A DNA stretch of 64,000 bases from NCBI GenBank assembly GCA_013360215.1, contig JABWCP010000014.1:8687-72686 (forward strand), in the 5' to 3' direction. Below are positions 10,736 through 44,168 of the stretch, piece by piece. The first letter of the stretch is position 1. The number at the start of each line of letters is the position of its first letter. The position numbers and the translations under genes are program-made. The stretch is from a bacterium. GTDB lineage: Bacteria; CLD3; SB21. A model generated the notes under the pieces. That model did not search any database, had not been told where the DNA came from, and saw only the letters and a program-made list of their open reading frames with translations.

Positions 10736-12593
10736 GAACTTCGACTACGGCCGCTTGCGGGGCCGGAGTATTTTTAGGCGTTTCTTTGCGATCTTTTTCT
10801 TTCGGATCAAACGATTTTTTGTTCCGAACAAAATTGAAATAATAATTCATCACAAGTGCACTCATCGGCGCCGCCACATCGGAACCCTCGCCGCCGTTTT
10901 CCATTAGCACAACTATAGCTATTTCTGGATTTTCATACGGTGCGAAACCTACAAACCAGCCGTGATAACCTTCGGTACCGGAACCGACTTTACCATGTAC
11001 GTTCTCTGCCGTTCCTGTTTTACCAGCAACCTGCGCCGCTTTCAATCCCGCTTTTTTTCCCGTACCTTCAAAATAATTGACGACGCCGAACATCGCTTGC
11101 CGCATCATATCCATGTGTTCTTGTTTTACGGCCACATGCTTGACCGGGAATGTTACACGGCGGATACCTTCACTATCCTCCGCATACCGCACCAAATGCG
11201 GCGTTTGGTAAGTGCCGGCATTCGCAAAAATCATCGCGTATTGCAAAAGTTGCACGGGTGTCACCAAAATTTCCCCCTGACCGATACCCAGATTGACCAC
11301 CGCGCCGCCTTTCCAATTATTGAAACCATACCGGCTGTTGTAGTATTCTGTCGTAGGAATCAATCCGCGGCGTTCGTTGGGAATATCCGTTCCTGTAGGT
11401 TCACCCAGACCAAACATACGCGCATATTTAGCCAAACGGTTGATCCCCAATTTCCATGCTAATTCATAAAAATACACATCGCACGAACGCACCAATGAAC
11501 TGGAAACATTCATGTGACCGTGGCCTTTGAGATTCCAGCATCGAAATTTATTACCACCGAGCTGATACACGCCTGTACACTCCACATACGTTTCCGGTGT
11601 TACCAATCCCTCTTCCAAACCGGCCAATGCCGTGATCATTTTAAAGGTGGAGCCAGGCGCATACCCGCTCTGTACCATACGATTAAAAAGCGGTTTGTCG
11701 GGATTTTCATTAAGCTCGCGCCATTGATCAATCGTAATGCCGTCCACAAACCAACGAAAATCATAATCCGGTTTGCTGGTTGCAGCCAAAATTTCACCCG
11801 TTCGTGTATCGGCCACCATGATCGAACCGCGACGCGTGCCCAAAGCGCTTTCGACAAATTTTTGATAATCATTGTCTATCGAGAGATACAGATTATAACC
11901 GTCGCGCGGGTGCTTGGATATGCCGAGATCGCGCAGAACTTGCCCCTTGGCATTGGTTTCTAAACGATGATATCCTTTTTCGCCACGCAATTCGACTTCG
12001 TAAAACTTCTCCAATCCCGATACGCCGACACGCTCGCCGATTTTATAGTCGGTATCCTGAAACTCGGCAGTTTTGTAATAACCGATGGTATTATCCGTAA
12101 TCTGGCTCATATAGCCGATCAGATGCGGCATGGTAATATCGTCGGCATAAATCCGGTTGATATCTACTTTATATCCGATGCCTCGATGAAAACGGCGCTC
12201 TTCTTCAAGATGCGCGATCGTGACAAAATCCACTTCCGGTTTTATTACAACCGGTGCGTAGGGCCATGCGCCGCGCAATTTTTTGAGAATGTCCTCATCC
12301 GTCATACCGGTCAGCGAACGCACATACTGCATTTCGCCGGCGTTAAGCGTGTCAAATTCCGACAAGGTAATCGTCAATGCAAACGTAGGCCGATTTTCAA
12401 CAATGCGCCGTCCATATCGATCGTAAATCAATCCGCGCGAGGGAATCTGATCAATCGTGCGGGTGCTGTTATCCTCAGCGCGTGCGTGAAAATTATCATA
12501 AGCCATGATTTGCAAATAAAACAAACGGCCGAGCAGCATCAGCAAAATAGCCGCCAACGAAACATACATGGTAACGACACGATGATGATTCAT
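10719..12593 (-). CDS. mrdA: Penicillin-binding protein 2 (elongasome transpeptidase)
   Basis: 624 residues. One N-terminal membrane anchor (about 8-28), a dimerisation domain containing DQIPSRGLIYDRYGRRIVEN (48-67), then the transpeptidase domain. Catalytic motifs are complete: SxxK as GSTFK (Ser315, Lys318), the second motif SCD (370-372), usual for class B PBP2, and KTGT (525-528). It cross-links new glycan strands for cylindrical growth with RodA, MreC and MreD, whose genes adjoin it in the same operon. The C-terminal ~35 residues are charged and Pro-rich, probably a disordered tail. Confidence 0.96.
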   Translation of the reverse strand: MNHHRVVTMYVSLAAILLMLLGRLFYLQIMAYDNFHARAEDNSTRTIDQIPSRGLIYDRYGRRIVENRPTFALTITLSEFDTLNAGEMQYVRSLTGMTDEDILKKLRGAWPYAPVVIKPEVDFVTIAHLEEERRFHRGIGYKVDINRIYADDITMPHLIGYMSQITDNTIGYYKTAEFQDTDYKIGERVGVSGLEKFYEVELRGEKGYHRLETNAKGQVLRDLGISKHPRDGYNLYLSIDNDYQKFVESALGTRRGSIMVADTRTGEILAATSKPDYDFRWFVDGITIDQWRELNENPDKPLFNRMVQSGYAPGSTFKMITALAGLEEGLVTPETYVECTGVYQLGGNKFRCWNLKGHGHMNVSSSLVRSCDVYFYELAWKLGINRLAKYARMFGLGEPTGTDIPNERRGLIPTTEYYNSRYGFNNWKGGAVVNLGIGQGEILVTPVQLLQYAMIFANAGTYQTPHLVRYAEDSEGIRRVTFPVKHVAVKQEHMDMMRQAMFGVVNYFEGTGKKAGLKAAQVAGKTGTAENVHGKVGSGTEGYHGWFVGFAPYENPEIAIVVLMENGGEGSDVAAPMSALVMNYYFNFVRNKKSFDPKEKDRKETPKNTPAPQAAVVEVHGTTN

Positions 12594-39705: not shown

Positions 39706-39740
39706 AAAAAGTACTCAAAAGATCATTCTTTGGTGAGTAC
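39706..39740 (-). terminator. Terminator of the nuclease-ATPase / AAA operon
   Basis: Stem GTACTCA (39711-39717) / TGAGTAC (39734-39740), extended by an inner AAAGA/TCTTT stem; on the minus strand it is followed by five T. It closes the AT-rich operon six bases after the stop codon, so the operon is a self-contained unit. Confidence 0.8.
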
Positions 39741-39745
39741 AAACT

Positions 39746-42262
39746 TCATACTATCTCACACTTTTTAGCTAAAACATCGGCTTCAACATATTTGTATTTT
39801 TTCTTTTCAATTCTTCCATCAGGATACTTTACTTCGACAATATCGTTTCTGCCAAATTTTTTAGAAGTAAGTAATAACATGAAAATCTCGTGTGAGTTTT
39901 TTATTTGAAGCAACTGATTCTTTATTGTTTGGATTCCTTTTTCATCGATTACTGATGTTTTTTTTCTGCTTGAATTCTCCAGTAATTCCAACGCATGGTC
40001 GGCGTACAACATGGACTTTTTCCCATCTCGTAATGAAAAATACAAGTTTGACATCCAATAATAAATAATTAACGATTCAAACTTTGTTTCATCGTCAATA
40101 GTCTCTTTAAGTTTAAGTTCAATTATTTTGGCTATGCTAAGCGCCTTATTTATCTCTGAACTATCTGACAAACTCTTGATTGCTACTGCGAATAAATATA
40201 TATCGCTCGGATCAATAAACGCATTCCCACTAAACAATTCCACATACTTATTAAAGTGTACGTTATCTGTCAAATTTGCCAGATCAATAAGGCATATTTC
40301 TTTAGTCGCCTTATACAACAACGTTTCATTTGTCTCATCTAAATTGTTTACTAAGTATTTGAGAATTTCGTTTCTCTTTAGCTTGGACAATTTACTTATA
40401 GAGTATATTATTTCAGGTTTAGTTATATCCTTCAAAAAATTCTTGTTTGAGTAGTCTAAAAGTAAAGAAAAGTTGTCTAAATTATCTTTGTCGAAAGCTA
40501 ACTCCAAATACAGCAAGAGATTGTTTTTATTAAATCCAATTGGATGCGAATCACTTTCGATCTTCAGAATTGAACTACTAAGGATAGTTTTAAAAATATC
40601 GTCTTTTATAGAAACATCAGTTTGTTGAGAAATAACATATTTTTGATATTTTAAAAAAAGAGAATCTGAAACATTACAAAACTCAAGAGCTTTGTTGATT
40701 TGCTCTAAAGCCGATTCTACATCTTCTTTTTTTTTATATATAACTGCCTGGTAATATAGAGATAGAGATCTTATCTTATTAAGGTATTCCTTTTTTTCTC
40801 CGCTTGCTTTATATGTCGAACTAAAGAGCTTTTCAAGTAAGTTGAGTGCCTGATTTTGATCATCAATAGAAATAGCAAGATTTAACAGTCCAATGTGATA
40901 TGCACGATTGTGATTCTCACCTTTTATGTACTCTTCTAAGATAGATATACCTTCGTTTTTTTCTCCAACAGCTATTTTACACACACCTAAATAGGGTTTG
41001 TAATCTAATACGAATGGTTCTTCAGAGAAACCATCACTAAGAATTTGCATTGCTTTTTTATAATTTTTTACATTAAAATATGATAGGCCTAGGAAATATC
41101 TATTAGACTCTAAATCTGTGTTCGATAGTGAGTCTTGATCTACACTTTCAAAAATCTCTATAGCTTCATGATAACTTTCATTAGAATACTTTATTAATCC
41201 ATCTATATGAGTATTATCTTTAATCGATGTCAACCATTCTTCTGAAAGACTTTCTTCAATAATTTTGTTTTTGATTCTAATTTCTCCTTCAAAATTAGAA
41301 CTTATTATTCCGAACAAATAGAGTTTACTTTTAATCTCATCAGTAAACTCCTCAGGCCTACCTTTGCGAAGAGCAATTAACGCGTTTTTTAACTGCTTAT
41401 TGTTCTTAATTAGCTCTCGAATGTGATCTATCGGGGAGACATCAAAAAAAGTTAAATATTTTTTTTTAATTAAGTCTTCAATAAGATCAACAGTTACAGA
41501 ACGTCCTTCTATCACAAGACTTTCCACGTCTGAACAAATATCAAATGTCAGTCTTGGGTTACCGTTTGCCCACTTATAGATTTCGTTTGAAATTAAAGTT
41601 GATATTTGTAATCCACTTTTTGATATAAAATCATCATGTTCAGATTTTGTAAAATCATCTAAATATATTTTTTCGCCAATATTAAACGGTGATTTATTTT
41701 TATCCTTTATCAACTCCGTAGGCTCAACAACACCAGAAAGTACATAAGTTAATCTTTCAAATTCAGGGAAATTTGTTCTTGAAAAATAAGTACTTCTTAT
41801 TTGAGCAAATATATTGTCAGAGTACGAAATGCTTTTAAGAGCATCGATTTCATCTAAAATTATAACTAATTCACAATTAATTTTATTTAGAATTAACTTT
41901 AGACAACGATAATATTCGCTATGTGGAGAAAGTGATTTTCTCCTAATTTGATCTATGTCGTTTTCAATATTCCCAATAACGCCGAGATTGGACTCAACAA
42001 TGATATTAATAATATTCCTATAACAATCGACTTCGTTATCATATAAATTTGATAAATCAATATAAGCAAATAACCTCTTTTCGTTTTCAAGAGTACCCTT
42101 GGCATGAAATAGTAAGTTTGTTTTACCCATTTGTCTTGCCACCAAAACGTACCCCGGCCTTTGCATCTCTTCAATTATATTTTTCAACTGAAGATCGGCG
42201 TTTCGTTCAACGTATAAATGGGGTGGAATTTTTGTATATTTTTTTAAAACTTTTTCTTTCAT
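39746..42262 (-). CDS. AAA_35-like ATPase with long TPR-like C-terminus (putative defence component)
   Basis: 838 residues. N-terminus YVERNADLQLKNIIEEMQRP then GYVLVARQMGKTNLL is the AAA_35 pattern (Walker A Lys47-Thr48). The first Walker A Gly is replaced by Val-Ala. Walker B is VIILDEID (133-140). A sensor-like WANGNPRLTFDIC lies at 231-243. From about 350 to 800 the protein is helical repeats resembling TPR (HEAIEIFESVDQDSLSNTDL, YYQAVIYKKKEDVESALEQI). No catalytic domain is visible elsewhere. ATGA overlap (42259-42262) couples its translation to the upstream nuclease-ATPase gene. Codon and base composition are AT-rich, unlike both neighbours. AAA_35/TPR proteins occur in predicted conflict systems; the exact role is inferred. 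Confidence 0.8.
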   Translation of the reverse strand: MKEKVLKKYTKIPPHLYVERNADLQLKNIIEEMQRPGYVLVARQMGKTNLLFHAKGTLENEKRLFAYIDLSNLYDNEVDCYRNIINIIVESNLGVIGNIENDIDQIRRKSLSPHSEYYRCLKLILNKINCELVIILDEIDALKSISYSDNIFAQIRSTYFSRTNFPEFERLTYVLSGVVEPTELIKDKNKSPFNIGEKIYLDDFTKSEHDDFISKSGLQISTLISNEIYKWANGNPRLTFDICSDVESLVIEGRSVTVDLIEDLIKKKYLTFFDVSPIDHIRELIKNNKQLKNALIALRKGRPEEFTDEIKSKLYLFGIISSNFEGEIRIKNKIIEESLSEEWLTSIKDNTHIDGLIKYSNESYHEAIEIFESVDQDSLSNTDLESNRYFLGLSYFNVKNYKKAMQILSDGFSEEPFVLDYKPYLGVCKIAVGEKNEGISILEEYIKGENHNRAYHIGLLNLAISIDDQNQALNLLEKLFSSTYKASGEKKEYLNKIRSLSLYYQAVIYKKKEDVESALEQINKALEFCNVSDSLFLKYQKYVISQQTDVSIKDDIFKTILSSSILKIESDSHPIGFNKNNLLLYLELAFDKDNLDNFSLLLDYSNKNFLKDITKPEIIYSISKLSKLKRNEILKYLVNNLDETNETLLYKATKEICLIDLANLTDNVHFNKYVELFSGNAFIDPSDIYLFAVAIKSLSDSSEINKALSIAKIIELKLKETIDDETKFESLIIYYWMSNLYFSLRDGKKSMLYADHALELLENSSRKKTSVIDEKGIQTIKNQLLQIKNSHEIFMLLLTSKKFGRNDIVEVKYPDGRIEKKKYKYVEADVLAKKCEIV

Positions 42263-43608
42263 TCTATTATTTCTTGATTTATTTGTTTGATTATTGAATC
42301 AATAATTTCCGCATTTAATACTTCCGAACTAACGACTCTTCTAAGAATTGCTTTCAATCTTCTTGGTGAACAACTAGAGGCCTCGATTATTTTACATTTA
42401 AATGTGTCTAGGTTTAATCGTAATGCGTCCTGAATTAAACAAAAAAGCAACTCAATGCTTTCGTTCCATCCGTTATTACAGTTTATATATTGAAAAAAAT
42501 CAGATGCTTTTGACCAATTCTTAATTAAGATAGATGGATCTGCAATGGTAGATATTACAAACTTTAAACTATTATCTGTTTTTTTATTACCATAGTAGTT
42601 TACTAAACTTGTTAGATCATCTGATATTTTCCTAACAAGAGTTATATCAATTAACGGTAACTCATCTATTACTATTACTTTTCGTTCTCTGTTTACTTCG
42701 GCCAGAAGCTGAACTATCTGTTTTATCACGTTCTGTTCCAATTGATTTCGTTCTTTGGAATACTTGTCTTCAATTCTACAAAGAACTTCTTCTAAAACGT
42801 CGTTTGACGTTCTGATATTTACAGGGCTAAGGTCGCAGAAACAGTAATCAATATCTGAAATCAACAAATTTCGATTTATTAACGTTGTTTTCCCAACTCC
42901 CGATTTTCCGAAAACCCATATATTATTTATGCTCAGAAATTTTATAAATTCGTCGTCTATTTTCCTTTTTAAATAAAAAGGTTCGCTTTTTTGGGAATAG
43001 CTATTAAATAGGATCGTTTCCGAATCAGGTTTTGATCTTCTTTTTAAGATGTAAGTATCCGATTCCTTTGTTTGTGTAGCACCACAAATAGTTTGATGCA
43101 TTTCCTGAATTCTAAGTGAATCTTCTATCCTGAAAACTGTATTATAAAGATCCTTCTCTTTAAGTAGATTGATTAGTTCATTTCCATTTATCAGTTTAAT
43201 GAATTCATCTGTTTTACTATGCTCAACAATTTTCTCACTCTTCCACTTCTCCCACCAACGCGCTTGATCAATATCTAAAACCGATGGAATACATAAAATC
43301 CAACTTTTAAGTTCGAAATTATCGGATTCTCTCGCGGTATCGAATGACTTTCTGATTTGTTGTTTTTGACTATCGGAAAAACTTTCCAAGAAAAACTTAC
43401 ATTGAACTACTGTTATTGGTTCTATTCCTATTTTCCCAATAAAAACATCAATCCCTCCATCTCCATGTTTTACTTCAACCTGACTTACGACCTGATTGGA
43501 ATACATTTTTCTAAATAAGTTCTCACAAGCAATTTCAAATGCTTTCCTTGCGCCCTCAATATTCCCATGTAGCGCTTTAAAGTCACTCCAATCTCTATTC
43601 ATTTTCAT
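42259..43608 (-). CDS. Mrr-like PD-(D/E)xK nuclease fused to a P-loop ATPase (putative defence effector)
   Basis: 449 residues. N-terminal nuclease: helix with Glu29 (FEIACENLFRKMY), then VEVKHGDGGIDVFIGK with catalytic Asp54, and VVQCKFF giving the Q-x-K of Mrr-type enzymes (Gln69, Lys71). A linker follows, then an ATPase with Walker A FGKSGVGKTTLI (Lys240, Thr241) and Walker B KVIVIDELPLID (Asp315, Glu316). A helical C-terminus (about 380-449) contains SSCSPRRLKAILRR, similar to STAND/AAA lids. All catalytic residues are present. Such fusions resemble abortive-infection and restriction effectors that cut nucleic acid when a sensor NTPase is triggered. It leads the operon, and its promoter must lie in the 162 bases before the tmRNA terminator. 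Confidence 0.85.
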   Translation of the reverse strand: MKMNRDWSDFKALHGNIEGARKAFEIACENLFRKMYSNQVVSQVEVKHGDGGIDVFIGKIGIEPITVVQCKFFLESFSDSQKQQIRKSFDTARESDNFELKSWILCIPSVLDIDQARWWEKWKSEKIVEHSKTDEFIKLINGNELINLLKEKDLYNTVFRIEDSLRIQEMHQTICGATQTKESDTYILKRRSKPDSETILFNSYSQKSEPFYLKRKIDDEFIKFLSINNIWVFGKSGVGKTTLINRNLLISDIDYCFCDLSPVNIRTSNDVLEEVLCRIEDKYSKERNQLEQNVIKQIVQLLAEVNRERKVIVIDELPLIDITLVRKISDDLTSLVNYYGNKKTDNSLKFVISTIADPSILIKNWSKASDFFQYINCNNGWNESIELLFCLIQDALRLNLDTFKCKIIEASSCSPRRLKAILRRVVSSEVLNAEIIDSIIKQINQEIIE

Positions 43609-43767: not shown

Positions 43768-43799
43768 AAAAAAAGCCGTTTCATATTGAAGCGGCTTTT
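43768..43799 (-). terminator. Terminator of the tmRNA gene
   Basis: Stem AAAAGCCG (43771-43778) / CGGCTTTT (43792-43799); on the minus strand it is followed by a T run. It separates ssrA from the nuclease-ATPase operon. Confidence 0.85.
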
Positions 43800-43807
43800 A
43801 GAATTCG

Positions 43808-44168
43808 TGGAGACGACGGGAATTGAACCCGTGTCCGAATATAAGTTCCTAAGGGCATCTACATGCGTAGGACTGTTTTGGTTTTTAACCGGCTCATAAA
43901 AAACGTCCAAAAAGCAAACCGGCGAGCTCGATAGTATTTCGCGTCAGACCTCCGAGCATTGGCCCTTCGCTAGTCGATCAAAAATGACATCTCAGCTAAC
44001 TCCGATCAACGGGAGATGGCCGAAACGGACTGCAGGAAATTAATCCTTAGGCAGCCAACGCGTATGCGTTATTGTTGAGTATTGGTTTCCGCTTATTTTA
44101 CGCGCACACAGAAAAAGCGCGGCATGCGACCCAAAGCACCCTATACCCGTCGAATCCAGTTCGTCCCC
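43808..44168 (-). ncRNA. ssrA: tmRNA
   Basis: 361 nt. 5' end GGGGACGAACTGGATTCGAC (complement of 44149-44168) and 3' end in the tRNA-like domain (GGGTTCAATTCCCGTCGTCT then CCA-less end) fit the two halves of the alanine-accepting acceptor and T arms. The seven-base acceptor GGGGACG pairs with CGTCTCC (one G-U). CCA is not encoded. The likely resume codon follows an ATACTC block (compare ATAGTC in E. coli) and gives the tag (Ala)-Asn-Asn-Asn-Ala-Tyr-Ala-Leu-Ala-Ala ending at TAA, which has the usual YALAA degron. It rescues stalled ribosomes. Its 3' end is a common integration site, and an AT-rich operon lies directly behind it. Confidence 0.95.

Follow-up and report, generated by a model that had tools for sequence, protein, structure and literature searches.

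A coupled pair of STAND-like NTPase genes with an interchangeable effector domain: a candidate two-gene anti-phage system

The NLR-like receptors known from bacteria are mostly single proteins. One example is Avs (AVAST), carrying a swappable N-terminal effector, a STAND NTPase and a tetratricopeptide-repeat (TPR)-like sensor on one chain; its effectors include Mrr nucleases and trypsin-like proteases with a metallo-beta-lactamase (MBL) partner, and the MBL protein of type I is Avs1a. The STAND proteins of P2/P4 hotspots are also single proteins, in which TIR, SIR2 or Mrr effectors are exchanged at the N-terminus of a STAND and TPR core (PMC9122126). Lamassu swaps effectors too, around a core formed by the SMC protein LmuB. 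In STAND-TPR proteins, an ADP-bound state is doubly autoinhibited through NOD and TPR sensor contacts, from which an inducer releases the protein to multimerise (PMC6468293). According to PMC12799240, the fused effectors of Avs, Hachiman and Lamassu are activated by oligomerisation; MBL nucleases are pro-enzymes activated by a trypsin-like partner, as shown in Hachiman and Avs, and the MBL/trypsin pair is reported in Lamassu and DRT as well. Here we describe two coupled genes, A and B, in a 64,000-nucleotide stretch of a bacterial contig (JABWCP010000014.1, positions 8,687 to 72,686, assembly GCA_013360215.1; hereafter the window, whose coordinates are used below). We consider it likely that they form a two-gene, NLR-type (STAND) anti-phage defense, in which sensor and effector reside on two NTPases:

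42259..43608, minus strand: gene A, 449 residues, Mrr-type nuclease effector plus AAA_22/STAND-like NTPase
39746..42262, minus strand: gene B, 838 residues, STAND NTPase (AAA_35) plus TPR, presumed sensor
42259..42262, minus strand: ATGA overlap of A and B, 4 bases, a sign of translational coupling; overlap or close spacing is kept in homologues

Protein B can be divided into three parts:

41240..42262, minus strand: residues 1-341, NTPase core, lid and winged-helix-like region (AAA_35, fold matches to 2qen and CED-4, invariant columns)
39893..41218, minus strand: residues 349-790, TPR-type superhelix and presumed sensor (TPR-type repeat matches, predicted structure)
39770..39856, minus strand: residues 803-831, C-terminal conserved module GRNxxVxVxYxxG...KYKxxE (alignment)

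AAA_35 is matched at 69 bits (cut-off 27), together with TPR-type repeats, and in the homologue alignment the Walker A sequence ARQMGKTNL (42-50) is invariant, with Walker B at D137-E138. A sequence search of the PDB gave nothing useful. The predicted structure of the whole protein (mean pLDDT 88) resembles known STAND folds: the top Foldseek match is the STAND-TPR protein PH0952 (6mfv), followed by Avs3, with Avs5 at rank 10. Residues 3-348 span the entire archaeal STAND ATPases 2qen/2fna and CED-4, winged-helix region included, with Z of 17-21 (20.8 across 311 residues for 2qen, 18 for CED-4). As modeled, B has the parts that define a STAND protein, namely a Walker A/B domain, a helical lid, a winged-helix region and a C-terminal repeat region, and it looks like a STAND receptor that lacks an effector. 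Its C-terminal module, GRNxxVxVxYxxG...KYKxxExD across the B homologues, is hit by a strict pattern in 23 of 33 copies and recurs as a recognizable variant in most others.

Protein A combines a nuclease domain with a second NTPase:

43150..43581, minus strand: residues 10-153, Mrr/LmuA-type PD-(D/E)xK nuclease domain (PADLOC LmuA, Pfam Mrr_cat, predicted topology)
43447..43449 and 43396..43398, minus strand: active-site residues D54 and K71, respectively, conserved in 9 copies
42262..43017, minus strand: residues 198-449, AAA+/STAND-like NTPase (AAA_22 at 35.7 bits, homologue alignment, fold matches)

The nuclease domain matches the PADLOC LmuA model with an E of 3e-22 and Pfam Mrr_cat at 22.3 bits, just over the cut-off of 21. 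Asp54 and the motif Gln69-Cys70-Lys71 are kept in all nine Mrr-type copies. The predicted N-terminus runs helix-strand-strand-strand-helix-strand-helix-strand, which is the Mrr order, and D54 and Q69xK71 fall on the expected strands. With a D...(D/E/Q)xK site in a modeled Mrr fold, this N-terminus is a predicted Mrr-type nuclease. The VIA-align listing for A spans residues 190-449 only and is uninformative on the nuclease fold; plasmid-derived rows were left out of the alignments used for structure prediction. In the NTPase, Walker A occupies G234-T241 (42886-42909), and E316 is an invariant acidic residue in an alignment of 26-30 homologues. Its fold matches are Cdc6/Orc, sso1545, CED-4 and Avs4; Z is 14-17 for Cdc6/Orc, TnsC and MuB, and 14 for the helper NLR NRC3. 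The alignment with the AAA+ core and lid of Cdc6/sso1545 runs to the C-terminus of A at 449, with zero residues remaining for a winged helix. A therefore looks, from its model, like an effector on an NTPase that lacks both sensor and winged-helix region. It is these fold matches of the two proteins that suggest B as the receptor without effector and A as the effector-NTPase without sensor. The first-pass annotation, made from the letters alone, had read intact nuclease residues (Asp54, Gln69-x-Lys71), a PD-(D/E)xK N-terminus and Walker A/B motifs in A, and an AAA_35-type ATPase with TPR-like repeats in B, all of which are borne out; B has Walker A/B motifs as well. Its proposal of a nuclease effector with an NTPase and a repeat-rich partner can now be refined to a complete STAND-TPR sensor, B, and a separate effector NTPase, A, whose effector is swappable.

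Co-occurrence across genomes had been named as a check, and the two genes do occur together at every locus found. B has 32 further copies, in Bacteroidota, Pseudomonadota, Planctomycetota, one plasmid and two viral contigs, and A is directly upstream in 32 of 32. Twenty-nine of these loci were found through B (26 in genomes, two on viral contigs, one on a plasmid), all with A directly upstream and mostly overlapping or a few bases away; three further copies were added. Plasmids were queried by tblastn with the two proteins of the window; this gave the plasmid locus, one coupled pair in Sphingobium, and also distant cyanobacterial AAA_35 proteins. The genome and viral-contig loci came from a search with an alignment of two B proteins, those of the window and the Sphingobium plasmid. 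The NTPase of A alone, used as query against 120 Hymenobacter and 392 Bacteroidota genomes (512 in all), returned exactly the genomes that carry B, at adjacent coordinates. The linkage of A and B is thus directly observed, and strict, in both directions. The distribution is patchy: Hymenobacter has B in 6 of 120 genomes, Bacteroidota in 2 of 392 and Gammaproteobacteria in 2 of 369, the seed genome being counted in each set. No close relatives emerged when viral and genome contigs were scanned with single-protein patterns, neither P0002 nor P0003 had a match in phage records, and the Aeromonas copy had no DNA match in E. coli genomes.

Some individual copies (loci are numbered with the prefix L) deserve comment. 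At L002 (5332-6882; Sphingobium plasmid AP027331.1, BDX81248), A is annotated with 351 residues, while the open frame has 516 and includes an alpha/beta-hydrolase domain; the annotated start codon is probably too far downstream. The B frames of L019 (2440-4551) and L009 (2416-4242) are shortened, to 703 and 608 residues, and the L009 DNA contains N; these copies may be broken or damaged in assembly. Adjoining the Mucilaginibacter pair at L005 lies a single gene (10794-12557) for an alpha/beta-hydrolase plus AAA_35/AAA_22 protein, possibly a one-protein cousin of the pair.

The NTPase pair is constant across the 33 loci, and the N-terminus of A is not:

Alpha/beta-hydrolase (DUF676-type, HSxGG motif): 11 loci
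Mrr-type nuclease: 9 loci, the window, L003-L007, L009, L011 and L042
Nucleoside phosphorylase (PNP_UDP): 9 loci
Trypsin-like: 3 loci, L010, L029 and L044
GNNN-motif tag: 1 locus, L008, with a short NGNNNN tag and a separate small gene in front

Classes were taken from Pfam, except that L004-L006, L019, L020, L023, L027 and L042-L044 were assigned by sequence similarity and motifs; the trypsin class, with no N-terminal Pfam match, was recognized by its sequence motifs and its MBL partner. That effectors are exchanged is directly visible in two Hymenobacter genomes, where the B proteins of L042 and L044 are 62% identical over their full length and the A proteins share 59% identity from residue 193 onward; before residue 193 the latter are unrelated, one being a nuclease and the other a protease. 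The tree of B places L042 and L044 as sisters (support 100/100), as it does L006 and L008, an Mrr and a tag type (100/98), and, by its starred branches, the Mrr label must have changed at least three times. Judged from these sequences, exchange between close sister copies appears to be recent. The same tree fits a single origin for the hydrolase group and a single one for the phosphorylase group, with weak support. The L042 genome has a second copy, L028, of the phosphorylase type. At L008 (6680-8001), a 137-residue gene ends in an NGNNNNxxxxINGSTI-like segment, and the NTPase encoded downstream has a matching N-terminus; by analogy, tag and segment possibly resemble the amyloid-signaling motif pairs of NLR systems.

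The trypsin-type copies tie the pair to known defense. By tblastn, an MBL gene is adjacent in all three trypsin-type loci and in none of the others. It lies directly upstream in L010 and L029, and these two MBL genes match the PADLOC models LmuA, RTasMBL and Avs1a; at L044 (5782-7002), unlike L010 and L029, it is divergent from the pair. A STAND-pair scaffold is not named among the carriers of the MBL/trypsin pair in the part of PMC12799240 at hand. The two copies on viral contigs are each set in a prophage-like region, a matter of direct observation: L029 is between phage repressor-like and integrase genes, and L030 has an integrase gene and a repressor-like one nearby.

How does the pair compare with the systems outlined above? 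It resembles Avs in its STAND and TPR-like sensor regions, in swapping N-terminal effectors that include Mrr and MBL-partnered trypsin, and in fold (Avs3 and Avs5 for B, Avs4 for the NTPase of A), but what Avs holds in one protein is here split over two coupled NTPase genes in all loci found. The same split distinguishes it from the single-protein P2/P4-hotspot STANDs. It shares with Lamassu the exchange of effectors, the LmuA match of A and the MBL/trypsin pair, but B is AAA_35 plus TPR, Pfam and PADLOC giving it neither an SMC nor an LmuB match, and the pair is not Lamassu because it has no SMC partner. B is closest to STAND-TPR proteins such as PH0952 and MalT, which differ in lacking a second, coupled NTPase that bears an exchangeable effector. 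The nearest functional likeness, as an analogy only, is to the sensor/helper NLR pairs of plants and animals (NRC helpers, NAIP/NLRC4), where one NTPase senses and the other has the effector. We propose, on that analogy, that the pair works like Avs and the eukaryotic paired NLRs. Neither its architecture nor its profile matches are those of Avs. In PADLOC, B has no match at E <= 1, neither protein matches Avs, and the matches fall mainly on the nuclease domain of A (LmuA). The first-pass annotation could name no system that the pair fits, and that still holds: the pair is undescribed in the papers we searched, all of them open-license PMC texts.

The surroundings in the window were also inspected:

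39706..39740, minus strand: hairpin plus T-run 3' of B, intrinsic-terminator-like (fold computation)
43805..44168, minus strand: ssrA (tmRNA), upstream neighbor outside the system (Rfam RF00023, 148.6 bits, E 2e-58)

The locus had been described as two AT-rich, ATGA-coupled genes that end in their own terminator directly behind ssrA, a classic integration site. Both genes and their 4-base overlap are present, and so is a terminator-like hairpin with T-run, which folding revealed and a simple terminator scan missed. The G+C of 39746-43608 is 0.308, against a mean of 0.454 (standard deviation 0.017, minimum 0.408) for other stretches of that length in the window; in G+C the pair is foreign to the window. 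ssrA is where it was said to be, clear in Rfam and overlooked by ARAGORN, with its own terminator at 43768-43799, between it and the pair. Its proposed role as integration site, however, is not supported. The end of ssrA has no direct, att-type repeat, no integrase was evident among the open reading frames of 36-47 kb (judged by eye), and in family relatives ssrA precedes unrelated genes, for instance an RND efflux operon in two genomes. The position behind ssrA is therefore not evidence of integration. Since the genes that follow ssrA differ among these relatives, the comparison with them found no clean empty site. The source genome has a single copy of A and likewise one of full-length B, and A is absent from 97 of 97 other genomes of the relatives sample.

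The following mechanism would fit these features. At rest, B would be an ADP-bound, autoinhibited STAND with its TPR superhelix as sensor. A trigger, presumably phage-derived, would bind the TPRs and switch B to its ATP form. Activated B would then recruit the small NTPase of A, whether by forming a mixed oligomer with it or by seeding oligomerization of A, and the N-terminal enzymes of A would thereby be clustered, probably in that order. In the window copy, the clustered Mrr-type nuclease would cut DNA and halt infection, probably at the cell's expense; in other copies, the platform would cluster an esterase/lipase-like hydrolase or a nucleoside phosphorylase, and in the trypsin-type copies the protease would activate the neighboring MBL pro-nuclease. 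The anti-phage phenotype is what we infer for the pair. For the more specific proposal, an obligate sensor/executor NLR-like pair, the first recognized in bacteria, in which two NTPases co-assemble, at least five N-terminal modules are interchangeable and the MBL/trypsin pair was acquired independently, we see the chances as even.

Several points weigh against the defense reading. The nuclease domain of A is predicted with moderate confidence (pLDDT about 50-75), its NTPase being predicted confidently. Defense-model matches lie near a few loci, for example type IV restriction at L014 and a DrmD/C3a139-like helicase at L003, in a count made without a control set. Finally, the AAA+ matches of A are broad, with Cdc6/Orc, TnsC and MuB equal to the STANDs, and by these models A could be a DNA-binding AAA+ protein instead. 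One alternative is a type IV-like, modification-dependent restriction system, in which the nuclease of A cuts foreign or modified DNA directly, its AAA+ domain translocates along DNA or loads onto it, and B is a regulatory ATPase. Such a system would account for the Mrr-type domain and for the resemblance to DNA-bound Cdc6/Orc, TnsC and MuB. However, a hydrolase, phosphorylase or protease, for which DNA recognition is needless, replaces the nuclease on the same NTPase pair, and B is a STAND-TPR protein rather than a DNA-reading domain; we regard this alternative as unlikely. Rather doubtful, too, and slightly more so, is a STAND signaling pair outside defense, in which stress or development triggers cell death, an idea put forward for the conflict systems of multicellular bacteria, and phage is at most one among the triggers. 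The STAND-TPR proteins MalT and AfsR do regulate genes, and the conflict systems of Kaur et al. include effectors of the types seen here; the prophage-like carriage, the patchy distribution and an MBL/trypsin pair in common with known anti-phage systems nevertheless argue for defense. That the pair is a divergent Lamassu or Avs and not a separate kind is very improbable, since, for all the LmuA match of A, the LmuA, RTasMBL and Avs1a matches of the L010 and L029 MBL genes and the Avs-like fold of B, B has neither a PADLOC match nor an SMC domain, Avs is single-chain where the pair is split over two NTPases, and only interchangeable effectors are in common.

As a two-gene NLR-type defense, the split pair would give bacteria an equivalent of the paired NLRs, and one small enough for reconstitution. 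L042 and L044, whose cores are nearly the same and whose effectors differ, are natural chimeras in which to ask how effectors as unlike as a nuclease, a lipase-like hydrolase, a phosphorylase and a protease can be driven from one platform. With the trypsin forms, a further scaffold for the MBL nuclease-protease pair would stand beside Avs, Lamassu, Hachiman and DRT, the carriers reported in PMC12799240.

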